From positions 1 through 41,245 of the forward strand of contig NZ_JQKD01000044.1 of NCBI RefSeq assembly GCF_000745855.1: DNA of 41,245 nt, read 5' to 3'. Within the stretch, counting starts at the first letter, position 1. Every line of letters begins with the position of its first letter. Source of the stretch: Xenophilus azovorans DSM 13620. GTDB lineage: Bacteria > Pseudomonadota > Gammaproteobacteria > Burkholderiales > Burkholderiaceae_C. Both the position numbers and the translations under genes were made by a program. This document shows, one piece after another, positions 6,031 through 37,759 of this stretch. The notes under the pieces were generated by a model, which saw only the letters and a list, made by a program, of their open reading frames with translations, made no database searches and was not told the origin of the DNA.

Positions 6031-6083
6031 GCGGCGACTGGGCAGTGCATTGCGGGACGGGTCCGTGCCCGTTGCGGATCGAA

Positions 6084-6201
6084 AGGCCGCGGAGCAGGCC
6101 GTGCGGGAACATCCGCGGAACTGGCTTCGCCAGGCCGCAGGATGTGCCCCCGTGAGGGGGTGCCGAAGCGGAACGAAGTCCGCGCAGGCTGGGGGTGGGC
6201 C
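6084..6201 (-). repeat. Dispersed palindromic repeat, family B, copy 1
   Basis: The gap between the YjgN and M48 genes holds a ~118-nt element whose minus-strand sequence matches the + strand at 16016-16173. Shared blocks include CCCAGCCTGCGCGGACTTCG, CACATCCTGCGGCC, TTCCGCGGATGTTCCCGCA and GGCCTGCTCCGCGGCC. It contains a hyphenated C-run/G-run palindrome and a GGCTTCGCC-type hairpin. A more diverged copy lies at about 19384-19490. All copies are between genes. Confidence 0.85.
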
Positions 6202-13567: not shown

Positions 13568-13635
13568 GCTCCCACGCTTCGCACGTCGTGTCGTCGTTGC
13601 CCCCCGAGGGGGCGCTTCAGCGCCCACGGGCGGCC
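13568..13635 (-). repeat. Palindromic repeat, family A, between xerC and rlmI
   Basis: Read on the minus strand this 68-nt stretch follows the same order of blocks as the two elements inside murD (29900 and 30257): a GGCCGCCC block, the C-run/G-run hairpin CCCCCTCGGGGGG, a GACACGACGTGC block and AGCGTGGGAGC. Spacers between blocks have diverged. Orientation is opposite to the murD copies. It lies entirely between genes here. Confidence 0.75.
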
Positions 13636-13649
13636 GGGCGGCGCTGAAG

Positions 13650-14852
13650 ATGAAGACCCTGCGCCTGAAGCCCGGCAAGGAGCGCTCGCTCCTGCGCCGC
13701 CACCCGTGGGTGTTCGACGCCGCCATCGCCAAGGGCGGCGGCGACCCGGGCGAGACGGTGCGCGTCGAATCGCACGACGGCCGCTTCCTGGCCTGGGCGG
13801 CGTGCAGCCCGCACTCGAAGATCCGCGCGCGGGCCTGGAGCTTCGACGAGGTGCAGCGCATCGACGCCGCCTTCCTGGCGGGGCGGGTGGCCCGCGCCGT
13901 GCAGGCCCGGGCGCTGTTCGGCATCGACAGCGACGGCGTGCGGCTGGTGCACGGCGAGGCCGACGGGCTGCCGGGCCTGATCGTGGACCGTTATGGCGAC
14001 ACGCTGGCGGCGCAGTTCCTCTCGGCCGGCGCCGAGCGCTGGAAAGGCGCGCTGGCCGACGCGCTGCTCGCGGCCACCGGGCTGGACAGGCTCTATGAAC
14101 GCTCCGACGCCAGCGGCCGCGAGCGCGAGGGGCTGCCGCCGGCCATCGGCTGGCTGCGCGGCAACGGCGCCACCGAACTGGCGATCCGCGAGCACGGCTG
14201 GCGCCTGACGCTGGACGTCGCCACCGGCCACAAGACCGGCTTCTACCTCGACCAGCGCGACAGCCGCCGCCGCTTCTCGGAGCTGGCCCGGCTGCGGCAT
14301 TTCCGCAGCGTGCTGAACTGCTATTGCTACACCGGCGGCTTCACCGTCGCGGCGGCCCACGGGCTGGCGGCGGCGGGCGCGCTCGAGGGCGCGGAACTGG
14401 TCTCGGTCGATTCCTCGCGCCCGGCGCTGGAGCGGGCCGAGGCGCACCTGGGGCTCAATGGCCTGGCGGGCGCGAAGGCCGAATTCCTCGATGCCGACGT
14501 CAACGCCACCCTGCGCCGCTTCATCGACGAGGGCCGGCGCTTCGACGCCATCGTGCTCGACCCGCCCAAGTTCGCGCCCACCGTGGCCCATGCCGAGCGC
14601 GCCGCCCGCGCCTACAAGGACATCAACCGCCTGGCCTTCAAGCTGCTGCCGCCGGGCGGCGTGCTGCTCACCTTCTCGTGCTCGGGCGGCATCTCGGCCG
14701 ACCTGTTCCACAAGATCGTGGCCTCCGCCGGCATCGACGCCGGGGTGGACGGCTACATCGCCGAGCGCCTGGGTGCCGCGCCCGACCACCCGATGACCAT
14801 CGAGTTCCCCGAGGGCGAGTACCTCAAGGGGCTGGTGGTGGTGCGCAAGTAG
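13650..14852 (+). CDS. rlmI: RlmI-like 23S rRNA (cytosine-C5) methyltransferase
   Basis: 400 residues. The N-terminal PUA-type domain (MKTLRLKPGKERSLLRRHPWVF ... GLPGLIVDRYGD) is followed by a class I methyltransferase: the SAM-binding LNCYCYTGGFTVAAA with acidic SVDSSRPALERA, then LDPPKFAP (about residue 304) and the catalytic-type Cys of FSCSGG (about residue 344). This matches RlmI, which makes m5C1962 in 23S rRNA in E. coli; the related RlmK/L or YccW names describe the same architecture. The C-terminus EYLKGLVVVRK is typical. It stands alone between xerC and the CobW gene, with a family A repeat just upstream and no strong ribosome site. Confidence 0.88.
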   Translation: MKTLRLKPGKERSLLRRHPWVFDAAIAKGGGDPGETVRVESHDGRFLAWAACSPHSKIRARAWSFDEVQRIDAAFLAGRVARAVQARALFGIDSDGVRLVHGEADGLPGLIVDRYGDTLAAQFLSAGAERWKGALADALLAATGLDRLYERSDASGREREGLPPAIGWLRGNGATELAIREHGWRLTLDVATGHKTGFYLDQRDSRRRFSELARLRHFRSVLNCYCYTGGFTVAAAHGLAAAGALEGAELVSVDSSRPALERAEAHLGLNGLAGAKAEFLDADVNATLRRFIDEGRRFDAIVLDPPKFAPTVAHAERAARAYKDINRLAFKLLPPGGVLLTFSCSGGISADLFHKIVASAGIDAGVDGYIAERLGAAPDHPMTIEFPEGEYLKGLVVVRK

Positions 14853-16015: not shown

Positions 16016-16173
16016 CCACCCCCAGCCTGCGCGGACTTCGTTCCGCTCCGGCAACCCCCTGCGAGGGGGCACATCCTGCGGCCCGGCCGAGCGCGGGGTC
16101 CCCGCGAAGCCTGTTTCGTGGGGTGCTTCGGTTCCGCGGATGTTCCCGCATGGCCTGCTCCGCGGCCTTCTGA
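16016..16173 (+). repeat. Dispersed palindromic repeat, family B, copy 2
   Basis: Immediately after the CobW stop. It matches the minus strand of 6084-6201 over both ends but carries an extra internal segment of roughly 45 nt (about 16093-16135) with its own GCGGGGTCCCCGC palindrome. The two ends are better conserved than the centre. Together with the leader that follows, it fills the 389-nt gene-free gap 16016-16404. Confidence 0.85.
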
Positions 16174-19383: not shown

Positions 19384-19490
19384 TCCCCCCAGTCTGCGCG
19401 CCGCGCGCTCCGCCAACCCCCCTTCTGCTGCGCGAAGGGGGGCGCACCCAGCGGCCTGGCAGAGCCAGTTCCGCGGGTGCCCTGGCGAAT
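19384..19490 (+). repeat. Diverged family B repeat between hslV and hslU
   Basis: The gap keeps the order of blocks seen at 16016 and 6084: CCCCCAGTCTGCGC, GCTCCGCCAACCCCCC, a G-run (AAGGGGGG), GCGGCCTGGCAGAGCCAG and TTCCGCGGGTG. Sequence identity is lower than between the other two copies. The C-run/G-run arms can still pair across the loop TTCTGCTGCGCG. Confidence 0.65.
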
Positions 19491-28846: not shown

Positions 28847-30712
28847 ATGAAGCACCTCCAGGATCTGCACGTCCTCGTCCTCGGCCTCGGCGCGTCCGGG
28901 CTGGCGATGGCGCGCTGGTGCGCGCGCCACGGCGCGCAGGTGACGGTGGCCGACACGCGCGAGGCGCCGCCGCAGTTGGCCGTGCTGCGCGAGCAGTTGC
29001 CGCAGGTGAAGTTCGTCGGCGGCCCGTTCAGCGCGGCGCTGGTCGAAGGCACGCCGATCCGCGCCGTGTACCGCTCGCCCGGCCTGTCGCCGGCCGCCAT
29101 CGCGCCGGTGGCCGACGCGGCGCGCGCCATCGGGCTGCCGGTGGGCGGCGAGCTGGACCTGTTCGTGCAGGCGCTGGCCGATCTGCGCGAGGCCGACGAG
29201 ACGCCGCAGGCCGACGAAGTTCCGGAGGCCGAGGCACCGGCCGAAGCGCAGGCCGAGGAGGCCCCGGCCGCCGCCGAACCCGCCCCCGCATCCGACGACG
29301 AGGCGCCCGCGCCCGTCATCGCCCCGCCGCCGGCCGAAACCGGCTACCGCCCCGCCGTGCTCGCCGTCACCGGCACCAACGGCAAGACCACCGTCACCTC
29401 GCTCACCGGCCTGCTGGTCGAGCGGGCCGGGCGCACGGTGGCCGTGGCCGGCAACATCGGCCCCAGCCTGCTCGACACGCTGGCCGAGCGGATGGACGCG
29501 GGCGACCTGCCGCAGGCATGGGTGCTGGAGCTGTCCAGCTTCCAGCTCGACGGCGTGCGCGGCTTCGAGCCGACGGCCGCCACGGCGCTCAACATCACGC
29601 AGGACCACCTGGACTGGCATGGCGACATGGCGGCGTATGCGGCGGCCAAGGCGCGCATCTTCGGCGAGCGCGGCCTGATGGTGCTCAACCGCGACGACGA
29701 GGCGGTGATGGCGATGCTGCCGCCGCCGGTGCGCGCGAAGCTGCAGCGGCCGCAGCAGCGCGCGCACGTCACCTTCGGCAGCGGCCTGCCGCAGCGCCCG
29801 GGCGACTTCGGCATCGAGCGCGTCAACGGCATGGCCTGGCTGGTGCGCGCGCACGAGGCCGACGAGACGCAGAAGCGCAAGCGCGGCGCCGCGCGCCGCG
29901 CCGGGCCGCCCCAAGCAAGCGCGCACCCCCTCGGGGGGCAGCGAGGACACGCAGTGCCGAATGTGGGGGCTTCAAGTGATGAGGAAGAGATCCACCTGCA
30001 GCGCCTGATGCCCGCCGACGCGCTGCGCATCCGCGGCCAGCACAACGCCATGAACGCGCTGGCCGCGCTGGCGCTGGCCGTGGCCGCCGGCTGCCCGCTG
30101 GCGCCGATGCTCTACGGCCTGCGCGAGTACGCCGGCGAGCCGCACCGCGTGGAGCCGGTTGCGCTGGTCGACGACATCGAGTTCTTCGACGACAGCAAGG
30201 GCACCAACGTCGGCGCCACCGCGGCCGCGCTGCTGGGCCTGGGCGGCGAGCGCAGCGCCGGGCCGCCCCAAGCAAGCGAGAGCCCCCTTGGGGGGCAGCG
30301 AGGACACGAAGTGCCGAGCGTGGGGGCCGTCGTCCAGCGGCGCATCGTGCTGATCGCGGGCGGCGAGGGCAAGGGCCAGGACTTCGGCCCGCTGGCCGAA
30401 CCGGTGGGCCGCTACGCCCGCGCCGTGGTGCTGATCGGCCGCGACGCGCCGATCCTCCGCGCCGCGCTGGAAGGCACCGGCGTGCCGCTGCTGGACGCCG
30501 CGTCGATGGACGAGGCCGTGCTGCTGGCTGCGCGCCGCGCGCAGCCCGGCGACGCGGTGCTGCTGTCGCCCGCCTGCGCCAGCTTCGACATGTTCCGCGA
30601 CTACGCGCACCGCGCCGAGGTGTTCCGGGGCGCCGTGCAGGCGCTGGCCGACGACCCGGCGCCGATGCGCGAGGGCGCCGCCGCGCCCGTCGAGGGAGAG
30701 GACGCGACATGA
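28847..30712 (+). CDS. murD: UDP-MurNAc-L-Ala--D-Glu ligase MurD, enlarged by three insertions
   Basis: 621 residues against roughly 440-500 in the family. The N-terminal UDP-binding domain ([22 protein letters not shown]) is followed by an acidic Ala/Glu/Pro-rich insert at about 115-166. The ATPase domain then continues: TGTNGKTT (about 175-182), [27 protein letters not shown]. Two more inserts, residues 352-375 and 471-494, are encoded by two copies of the same palindromic repeat and read [20 protein letters not shown]. The second lies between [14 protein letters not shown] and [13 protein letters not shown] in the C-terminal domain. [12 protein letters not shown] is intact. Catalytic motifs are complete, so activity is expected. 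It ends overlapping ftsW (ATGA). Confidence 0.96.
29900..29971 (+). repeat. Family A palindromic repeat in murD, copy 1
   Basis: 72 nt starting on a codon boundary. Contains the central hairpin CCCCC-TC-GGGGG and ends CCCCA/TGGGG that can pair. It matches the copy at 30257 at 63 of the first 70 positions and has the same frame, giving 24 residues [16 protein letters not shown] then HAVPNVGA. Flanked by Arg/Lys-rich codons, also GC-rich. Confidence 0.92.
30257..30328 (+). repeat. Family A palindromic repeat in murD, copy 2
   Basis: Same length, orientation and codon phase as the copy at 29900. Differences cluster beside the central hairpin (CCCCC-TT-GGGGG) and in the third quarter. It encodes [16 protein letters not shown] then HEVPSVGA, between two conserved motifs of the MurD C-terminal domain. 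Confidence 0.92.
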
Positions 30713-36418: not shown

Positions 36419-37648
36419 ATGGCCAAAGACTACAAAGACCTGGTCGTCGGACTCGACATCGGCACCGCCAAGGTGATGGTGGTGGTGGCGGAGGTGCTGC
36501 CCGGTGGCGAGCTCAAGCTGGCCGGGCTGGGCGTGGCGCCGAGCAACGGCCTCAAGCGCGGCGTGGTGGTCAACATCGACGCCACCGTGCAGAGCATCCA
36601 GCAGGCGCTCAAGGAAGCCGAGTTCATGGCGGACTGCAAGATCAGCCGCGTCTACACCGGCATCACCGGCAGCCACATCCGCGGCATCAACTCCAGCGGC
36701 ATGGTGGCCGTCAAGGACAAGGAAGTCACCGCCACCGACGTCGCCCGCGTGGTCGAGACGGCGCGCGCCATCAACATCTCCAGCGACCAGCGCCTCCTGC
36801 TGGTGGAGCCGCAGGAGTTCGTGATCGACGGGCAGGACGTGAAGGAGCCCATCGGCATGAGCGGCATGCGGCTCGAAGCCAAGGTGCACATCGTCACCGG
36901 CGCTCAGAGCGCGGCCGAGAACATCATCAAGTGCGTGCGCCGCTGCGGGCTGGAGGTGGACCAGCTCATGCTCAACCCGCTGGCCTCCAGCCAGGCGGTG
37001 CTGACCGAGGACGAGCGCGAGCTGGGCGTGGTGCTGGTGGACATCGGTGCCGGCACCACCGACGTGGCCATCTTCACCGGCGGCGCGATCCGCCACACGG
37101 CCGTCATCCCGATCGCCGGCGACCTGATCACCAGCGACATCGCGATGGCGCTGCGCACGCCCACCAAGGACGCCGAGGACATCAAGGTCGAGAACGGCTT
37201 CGCCAAGCAACTGCTGGCCGACCCGGAGACGCAGGTGGAGGTGCCCGGCCTGGGCGACCGCGGCCCGCGCCTCCTGAGCAAGCAGGCGCTGGCCGGCGTG
37301 ATCGAGCCGCGCATCGAGGAGATCTTCTCGCTGGTGCAGCAGGTGGTGCGCGAGTCGGGCTACGAGGAAGTGCTCTCGTCCGGCGTGGTGCTCACCGGCG
37401 GCAGCGCGGTGATGCCCGGCATGGTCGAGCTGGCCGAGGACATCTTCCTCAAGCCCGTGCGCCGCGGCATCCCCAAGTATTCGAGCGCGCTGTCGGACAT
37501 GGTGGCCCAGCCGCGCGCGGCCACCGTCATGGGGCTGCTCGAGGAAGCGCGCCACGCCCGCATGCGCGGCTACAAGGTGGCACAGAAGAGTGGCTCGGTG
37601 AAGACGGCCTTCGGCCGCTTCAAGGACTTCATCGTGGGGAACTTCTGA
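36419..37648 (+). CDS. ftsA: Cell division protein FtsA
   Basis: 409 residues, actin/Hsp70 fold. Tethers FtsZ filaments to the membrane and signals to the synthases. Phosphate loops: VVGLDIGTAKVMVVVAE at about 8-24 and VVLVDIGAGTTDVAIFTGG at about 205-223; adenosine motif VVLTGGSAVMPG near 322-333. The 1C subdomain lies around residues 85-165 (AINISSDQRLLLVEPQEFVIDGQ). The C-terminal amphipathic membrane helix is present as FGRFKDFIVGNF. A purine-rich stretch with GAAGGAA at 36393-36399 lies upstream; the gap from ftsQ is 39 nt. ftsZ follows after a 262-nt repeat-bearing gap. Confidence 0.97.
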   Translation: MAKDYKDLVVGLDIGTAKVMVVVAEVLPGGELKLAGLGVAPSNGLKRGVVVNIDATVQSIQQALKEAEFMADCKISRVYTGITGSHIRGINSSGMVAVKDKEVTATDVARVVETARAINISSDQRLLLVEPQEFVIDGQDVKEPIGMSGMRLEAKVHIVTGAQSAAENIIKCVRRCGLEVDQLMLNPLASSQAVLTEDERELGVVLVDIGAGTTDVAIFTGGAIRHTAVIPIAGDLITSDIAMALRTPTKDAEDIKVENGFAKQLLADPETQVEVPGLGDRGPRLLSKQALAGVIEPRIEEIFSLVQQVVRESGYEEVLSSGVVLTGGSAVMPGMVELAEDIFLKPVRRGIPKYSSALSDMVAQPRAATVMGLLEEARHARMRGYKVAQKSGSVKTAFGRFKDFIVGNF

Positions 37649-37683: not shown

Positions 37684-37759
37684 GCCCCCAGGGCTGGGCG
37701 TTGCCCAGCCCGCCCCCCGAGGGGGGCAAGAAAACTTGGGGCGGCCCGGCGTTTTCTTG
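37684..37759 (+). repeat. Multi-hairpin repeat between ftsA and ftsZ
   Basis: Three hairpins in a row: GGGCTGGGC-GTT-GCCCAGCCC (37691-37711), GCCCCCC-GA-GGGGGGC (37712-37727) and AAGAAAAC...GTTTTCTT (37728-37758) with loop block GGGGCGGCCCGGC. The layout equals the murE element. The loop block also matches, in reverse, the GCCGGGCCGCCCCAAG end of the murD copies, so the families are related mosaics. Confidence 0.88.

Follow-up and report, generated by a model that had tools for sequence, protein, structure and literature searches.

Two in-frame copies of a hairpin-rich repeat in murD of Xenophilus azovorans DSM 13620 are probably recent and separate insertions

The window analyzed here, a 41,245-nt stretch of contig NZ_JQKD01000044.1 of Xenophilus azovorans DSM 13620, contains a murD gene that holds two copies of one palindromic repeat in the same orientation and reading phase. 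The gene murD is essential, and the question raised by this locus is how two such copies came to lie in it. The product was identified as MurD by the Pfam domains PF21799, PF08245 and PF02875 and by matches to solved MurD chains. A genome search with the MurD protein indicated a single murD in strain DSM 13620; the five other matches were four short element peptides and one weak match at C40:24845-25360, which, judged from its position, is a related Mur ligase. The cores of the two murD copies agree at 63 of 70 nt, one retrieves the other at E 4.9e-22 in a whole-genome search, and both begin on a codon boundary (29900-28847=1053 and 30257-28847=1410, each divisible by 3) and translate to AGPPQAS-type peptides. 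Coordinates and translation thus confirmed the identity, shared phase and codon-boundary starts given in a preliminary description of this DNA; its two near-identical peptides also stood, but the lengths are 27 and 29 residues by alignment with the MurD of a close relative (P0007), not 24 (Table 1). A separate feature of this protein is a long Ala/Glu/Pro-rich stretch between the N-terminal and middle domains (residues ~114-166), and similar stretches were seen at the same place in the MurDs P0030, P0072, P0074 and P0090.

Table 1. Positions in the window of murD, its two inserts, the repeat boxes and two intergenic copies.
Feature	Position	Strand	Phase or basis
murD ORF, 621 aa, holds both inserts	28847..30712	+	Pfam domains and solved MurD structures
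MurD site 3 (MLPPPV codons), without element in the window murD	29714..29731	+	
Insertion 1, 81 nt, 27 codons	29894..29974 (ends +/- few nt)	+	phase +1, alignment with P0007
Core repeat of murD copy 1	29899-29970	+	phase +1
Box A of copy 1, GCCGGGCCGCCCCAAG, left hairpin loop	29900..29915	+	
Box B of copy 1, CCCCCTCGGGGGGCAGCGA, central hairpin	29926..29944	+	
Insertion 2, 87 nt, 29 codons	30254..30340 (ends +/- few nt)	+	phase +1, alignment with P0007
Core repeat of murD copy 2	30256-30327	+	phase +1
Box A of copy 2	30257..30272	+	
Box B of copy 2, one mismatch	30283..30301	+	
Intergenic copy, end just before ATG at 13650	13568..13649	-	
Intergenic copy, arms CAAGAAAA/TTTTCTTG, downstream of ORF 36419-37648 (which we take to be ftsA-like)	37684..37759	-	

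Most probably, the two murD inserts arose recently and separately from a selfish, non-autonomous mobile repeat that is rich in hairpins, and purifying selection filtered its insertions. Direct observations are the number of copies, their occurrence or lack in close relatives, the in-frame state, the use of several phases and the filling of the same sites in distant MurDs. In the proposed mechanism, an enzyme would carry repeat copies to new places, with transposition as the presumed route, and within genes purifying selection would act as a filter, sparing just those insertions that preserve the frame and bring no stop codon. The G+C-rich, stop-poor repeat would then be translated and show up as a stretch of about 25-29 residues rich in Gly/Pro/Ala/Ser at a tolerant place of the protein, presumably without harm to the enzyme.

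The element is about 75-90 nt long and consists of an outer arm X, box A, an inner arm X', the box B hairpin (GCCCCC-TCG-GGGGGC), a third hairpin and a TGGGGGC end, with box A forming the loop of the left hairpin. At least 103 copies with boxes A and B were found in 90 fetched stretches plus the window, a count from which about ten listed box A matches were left out, and the earlier expectation of further copies in the genome was thereby borne out. Seven of 89 box A matches were first flagged without box B, and five of these joined the 103 under a looser box B rule. Among the matches outside the 103, L106 at 3061 and L148 failed the box B rule, and L066 at 4000, L083 and L104 at 4484 have box B together with a more divergent box A. 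With copy 2 as query and 40 scored out of 124 candidates, at least 41 genome matches were obtained. When up to 2 mismatches were allowed, box B occurred 56 times in the genome versus 0 for the reversed-pattern control; box A occurred 175 times versus 61 for its control. The body averaged 79 nt for in-gene copies (G+C 0.81) and 80 nt for the others (G+C 0.73), and tandem copies were 72-94 nt apart.

Of 36 genomes of the same family, Xenophilus azovorans DSM 13620 among them, 35 have box A with at most 1 mismatch. So do 8 of 24 genomes from elsewhere in the order, mostly at control level, with one exception of 9 matches. A stricter A-to-B pattern was found in 19 of 250 genomes of the order; the same family accounts for 6 of these (7 genomes searched) and other families for 13 (243 searched), four of the 13 having 15 to 54 copies each. 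Named carriers of the repeat include Variovorax, Acidovorax, Polaromonas, Xenophilus, Rhodoferax and similar genera. Even with E allowed up to 10, a search of Rfam gave no match at the murD repeats, and over eight sources the sole match above the gathering score was a tRNA.

Other repeats and subgroups were also observed. A second repeat family in the window (6083-6198, 16016-16169 and 19438-19479) has a similar layout of arms and loop, CCCCC hairpin and TGGGGG end with a different loop, and its copies at 6083-6198 and 16016-16169 are oppositely oriented. One subfamily of the main repeat lies in T-rich tracts with TTTTTTGT or TTTTTCAT on both sides (L106, L118, L119, L129 (8894), L131, L145, L147 and others), some copies directly following a terminator-like hairpin. 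Another adjoins CAT, the start codon of the other strand (L071, L074 (4953), L107, L151, L160, L214 and others), and in several of its copies CATnTCA-like words are common to both flanks.

The murD gene was compared with its relatives. The MurD P0007 is identical to the window MurD at 552 of 565 aligned residues (97.7%) and is without exactly both inserts, so both inserts look recent. Both are likewise absent from P0009 (518 of 557 residues identical), and sites 1 and 2 were without the element in 80 of 80 MurD relatives from named genome records, in line with the empty sites that the preliminary description had proposed to look for. Copy 2 shows 94% identity to two copies elsewhere and copy 1 shows 92% to two others, compared with 90% between copies 1 and 2; seven copies elsewhere are nearer to copy 2, and three nearer to copy 1, than the murD copies are to each other. 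Since neither murD copy has its closest match in the other, and a local duplicate would be expected to be nearly identical given the small divergence from P0007, the two murD inserts appear to be separate insertions from different donors. The opposite view, in which one of the two murD copies gave rise to the other by local duplication, can appeal to their location in one gene, their common phase and orientation and their close match; it is nevertheless very improbable, since in addition to the identities above the window MurD is the only one among the MurDs listed with the element at sites 1 and 2 together (P0002-P0004 have only site 2 filled, and 25 others have site 1 filled but site 2 empty). 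Of the two origins first considered, independent insertions or a copy event, the former is therefore retained and the latter is not.

The same comparison was extended to copies in other genes. Twenty-three of the 35 in-gene copies were searched against congeners, and 16 had congener matches among the matches listed; at all 16 of these alignable sites, at least one congener is without the element. Five of the 16 sites are also filled in some congener (L063, L072, L101, L109 and L111). The congener locus L262 has no element at the L063 site and has another copy elsewhere in its 601 nt.

The filling of the same MurD sites in other genera was determined in 200 rows, consisting of a protein search with MurD residues 340-505 (best 120 of 7996 matches) and the loci of 80 relatives; the two sets overlap partly (e.g., P0075 = L161, P0115 = L170), and the protein search is enriched for carriers because its query contained both inserts, in phase +1, at sites 1 and 2. 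Among these listed MurDs and the 80 relatives, the element was found at exactly the same sites, with 26 of 197 readable rows filled for site 1, 4 of 198 for site 2 (P0008 excluded) and 17 of 153 for site 3 (MLPPPV). Phase +1 was used by 25 of the 26 inserts at site 1, by 3 of 4 at site 2 according to the script (the fourth, P0003, by eye) and by 13 of 17 at site 3, which lies outside the query region and has both +1 and +2. A tandem pair occupies site 3 in P0048, and the site-1 insert of P0081 is in reverse orientation. The long site-2 segment of P0008 was rejected as an element, being a duplication of MurD's own sequence around its second GTNVGA, near site 2.

For a 97-row MurD tree, the insert columns were removed and all filled rows plus every third of the rest were kept. 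The minimum numbers of changes, which count gains and losses alike, were 9 at site 1 (26 filled of 95), 4 at site 2 (4 of 96) and 9 at site 3 (17 of 74); the 200-row FastTree gave 9, 5 (P0008 counted) and 12, respectively. A single clade of the four site-2 carriers was rejected (p-AU 2.4e-66). Such counts, being blind to the direction of change, would also suit an ancient filling of all three sites followed by precise loss in most lineages, and insert positions that agree to the residue fit that history as well. We consider it improbable, however: most sites are element-free (192 of 198 rows show the short length of 18 at site 2), the two phases at site 3 and the reverse insert at site 1 mean that separate events are needed, and repeated precise loss restoring a conserved protein would be unexpected of such elements. 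Under recent and separate insertion, reuse of the same MurD sites would reflect positions that the element accepts as targets and where the protein also tolerates an insert.

Whether the element is adapted to translation in one phase was judged from copies in other genes. By a codon score trained on the window genes, 35 of 103 copies lie inside one coding frame that is open on both sides, in frame; in-gene status comes from this score and not from annotation, "in frame" is partly a condition of the in-gene call, and 35 may be low, since borderline copies (e.g., L070, L073 twice, L092) fell under the threshold and were counted as "other". When translated, the in-gene copies form a stretch of about 26-28 residues, as bracketed by the script, with protein sequence before and after it. 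Read by eye, the targets are presumably uvrA, trpE, recJ, recG, pyruvate dehydrogenase E1 and ABC ATPases, among others. L079, which we take to be a valine tRNA synthetase gene (valS-like), has two copies (3056 and 3974) in two phases, -1 and -2. L064 and L072, apparently two different biotin-carboxylase-like genes, each have a copy at the same relative place, shortly before the RLQVEH motif. Four further copies (L074 at 3689, L082, L094 and L141) scored as coding on both sides, on the same strand in different phases; by eye, a TGA was seen on the 5' side of all four and an ATG on the 3' side of three, indicating that these copies sit between genes.

The phases of the 35 in-gene copies were +0 in 4, +1 (the murD phase) in 9, +2 in 8, -0 in 0, -1 in 3 and -2 in 11. 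The suggestion that the element has been selected for translation in the AGPPQAS phase draws on several of these data: phase +1 is used by the two murD copies and by most of the inserts in MurDs of other species, phase use among in-gene copies is uneven (chi-square p 0.011) with none in -0, and all six frames are open in 32 of 35 in-gene copies, above the 63% of dinucleotide shuffles (other copies 27 of 68, or 40%, versus 40%). Yet -2 and +2 are about as common as +1 among in-gene copies, the five copies of the murD copies' own variable-segment class use +1 and +2 at 3 to 2, the reverse-strand frames yield quite different peptides, and the +1 excess among MurD matches is clouded by the +1 inserts in the query and is mixed at site 3. 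With five of six phases in use, selection for one phase is mostly refuted and quite improbable; the expected bias among coding copies survives as uneven use of several phases, not as a preference for one. The shared +1 phase in murD is better explained by the position of the insertion sites.

It was also considered whether the inserts are removed from the protein or, as with the palindromic bypass elements of Magnusiomyces mitochondria, skipped in translation. The hairpin repeats present there and the essential nature of murD would be compatible with this, but in-gene copies keep the frame and stay open, which would be needless under skipping, and shuffled sequence folds as well as the murD copies do (z +0.45 and +0.30 for the two copies). 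This explanation is therefore extremely unlikely. RNA structure as a selected feature in murD was rejected on the same folding values; four other copies gave z of -3.1 (L119), -2.2 (L129), -1.8 (L063) and 0.0 (L101).

With respect to mobility, flanking direct repeats, a usual mark of transposition and the target-site duplication expected of a MITE, were counted as shared words of at least 6. They were in excess at intergenic copies, with 27 of 66 versus a mean of 11.3 and a maximum of 20 in shuffles; at in-gene copies they stayed within the range of shuffles, with 6 of 35 versus a mean of 4.3 and a maximum of 10. No box B was found beside Y1 transposase genes in 12 Y1 loci (3.3 kb each) from the family search, nor near Y1 genes in ~10-kb regions of Xenophilus azovorans DSM 13620 and three congeners. 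A Y1/RAYT transposase was accordingly rejected as the mover, as no copy lies beside the single-copy Y1 genes of the strain and its congeners. This result and the in-gene flanks count against the proposed insertion mechanism.

The left hairpin arms vary from copy to copy and yet stay complementary, which is the most novel feature of the family. The 103 copies have 55 distinct 7-nt outer arms, and 39 of the 55 representatives pair with the inner arm at 6 or 7 of 7 positions, whereas shuffled pairs (5000) gave a mean of 1.8 and a maximum of 8. The register is exact (78 of the 103 have offset 0, and no other offset has more than 4), and in the in-gene copies alone 22 of 32 distinct outer arms pair with the inner arm. 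The class of the murD copies pairs poorly in the common register (run of 1). Between species, coordinated two-sided arm changes were observed at orthologous filled sites (L063 versus L264 and L340; L101 versus L295 and L341), and the ortholog L297 has broken arm pairs. The arms are unchanged in the filled congeners of L072 and L109 and in two congeners of L111, with L307 differing in the outer arm.

The outer arm X at first looked like host flank, but in congener alignments X arrived with the insert at several in-gene sites (L069, both L079 sites, L081, L086 and L063). Only at some sites does X look target-derived (MurD site 3 in L177/L184/L189, L129, L077 and terminator-type intergenic copies). 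It is possible, though doubtful, that the left arms are rewritten copy by copy, the inner arm being re-templated from the outer on or after insertion (snap-back or template switch), so that the element could take on local sequence, form its hairpin wherever it lands and survive even where the coding sequence is essential, while independent insertions would return to preferred protein sites. At the few orthologous sites available, compensatory selection and template switching both fit the arm data. The copy-by-copy arms are a natural record of how short inverted repeats stay perfect.

Several known systems resemble this repeat. The Betaproteobacterial repeat element (BRE) is described in the accessible part of its report as 75-91 bp long with an average G+C of 69%, arranged in tandem arrays and hosted by Bordetella and Comamonadaceae, with 29 copies in Polaromonas sp. 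(PMC3110155). Size, high G+C, interspersed and tandem arrangement, hosts and in-gene copies all match the Xenophilus repeat, which is probably BRE or close kin, as compared by description and not by sequence. The accessible description differs in containing no analysis of reading frames, inserted peptides or within-gene site reuse (PMC3110155). Among the open-access papers searched, no report on reading frames or MurD inserts was listed for this repeat family.

Coding palindromes of nematomorph mitochondria are likewise hairpin arms in coding sequence that are kept complementary; their inverted repeats are perfect, with arms of up to 142 bp, and template switching was proposed for them in a text that also mentions the Magnusiomyces bypass elements (PMC6649704). 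They differ in that the accessible text does not describe a dispersed family whose members share a constant core.

In-frame palindromic repeats in genes are already known, double insertions in one gene included, from the excerpts available (PMC10969869, PMC3733652), mainly from Rickettsia and some REP-rich species. Here, one genome has dozens of in-frame copies, some in essential enzymes, and a near-identical sister allele without the inserts exists, so that the cost, the insertion mechanism and the fate of the peptide are testable by simple allele comparison. Rickettsia palindromic elements, as summarized in the available excerpt, are ~150 bp long, confined to Rickettsia and each said to encode a conserved peptide (PMC10969869). 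Like the Xenophilus repeat, they are palindromic repeats lying in frame in many unrelated genes, with the peptide fused to conserved proteins; unlike them, the Xenophilus repeat is G+C-rich, shorter, hosted by Burkholderiales and present in several phases and both orientations. According to the accessible text, the intragenic GTAG/CGTC-tagged REPs have tagged units of 20-40 bp and give inserts of 20-30 aa; Opitutus terrae and R. conorii provide cases of a gene with two of them, uvrA is one target, and recB of two Xanthomonas species is filled at about the same site (PMC3733652). The insert length, the double insertion in one gene and the presumed uvrA target are shared with the Xenophilus repeat, whereas its unit is ~80 nt, GTAG is rare (7 of 103 copies, with CGTC in 33 of 103, on either strand and anywhere in the stretch, ends not taken separately) and no Y1 transposase gene was found beside the copies. 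The best explanation for the two inserts in murD is probably a selfish element that works like the Rickettsia palindromic elements and the intragenic REPs.
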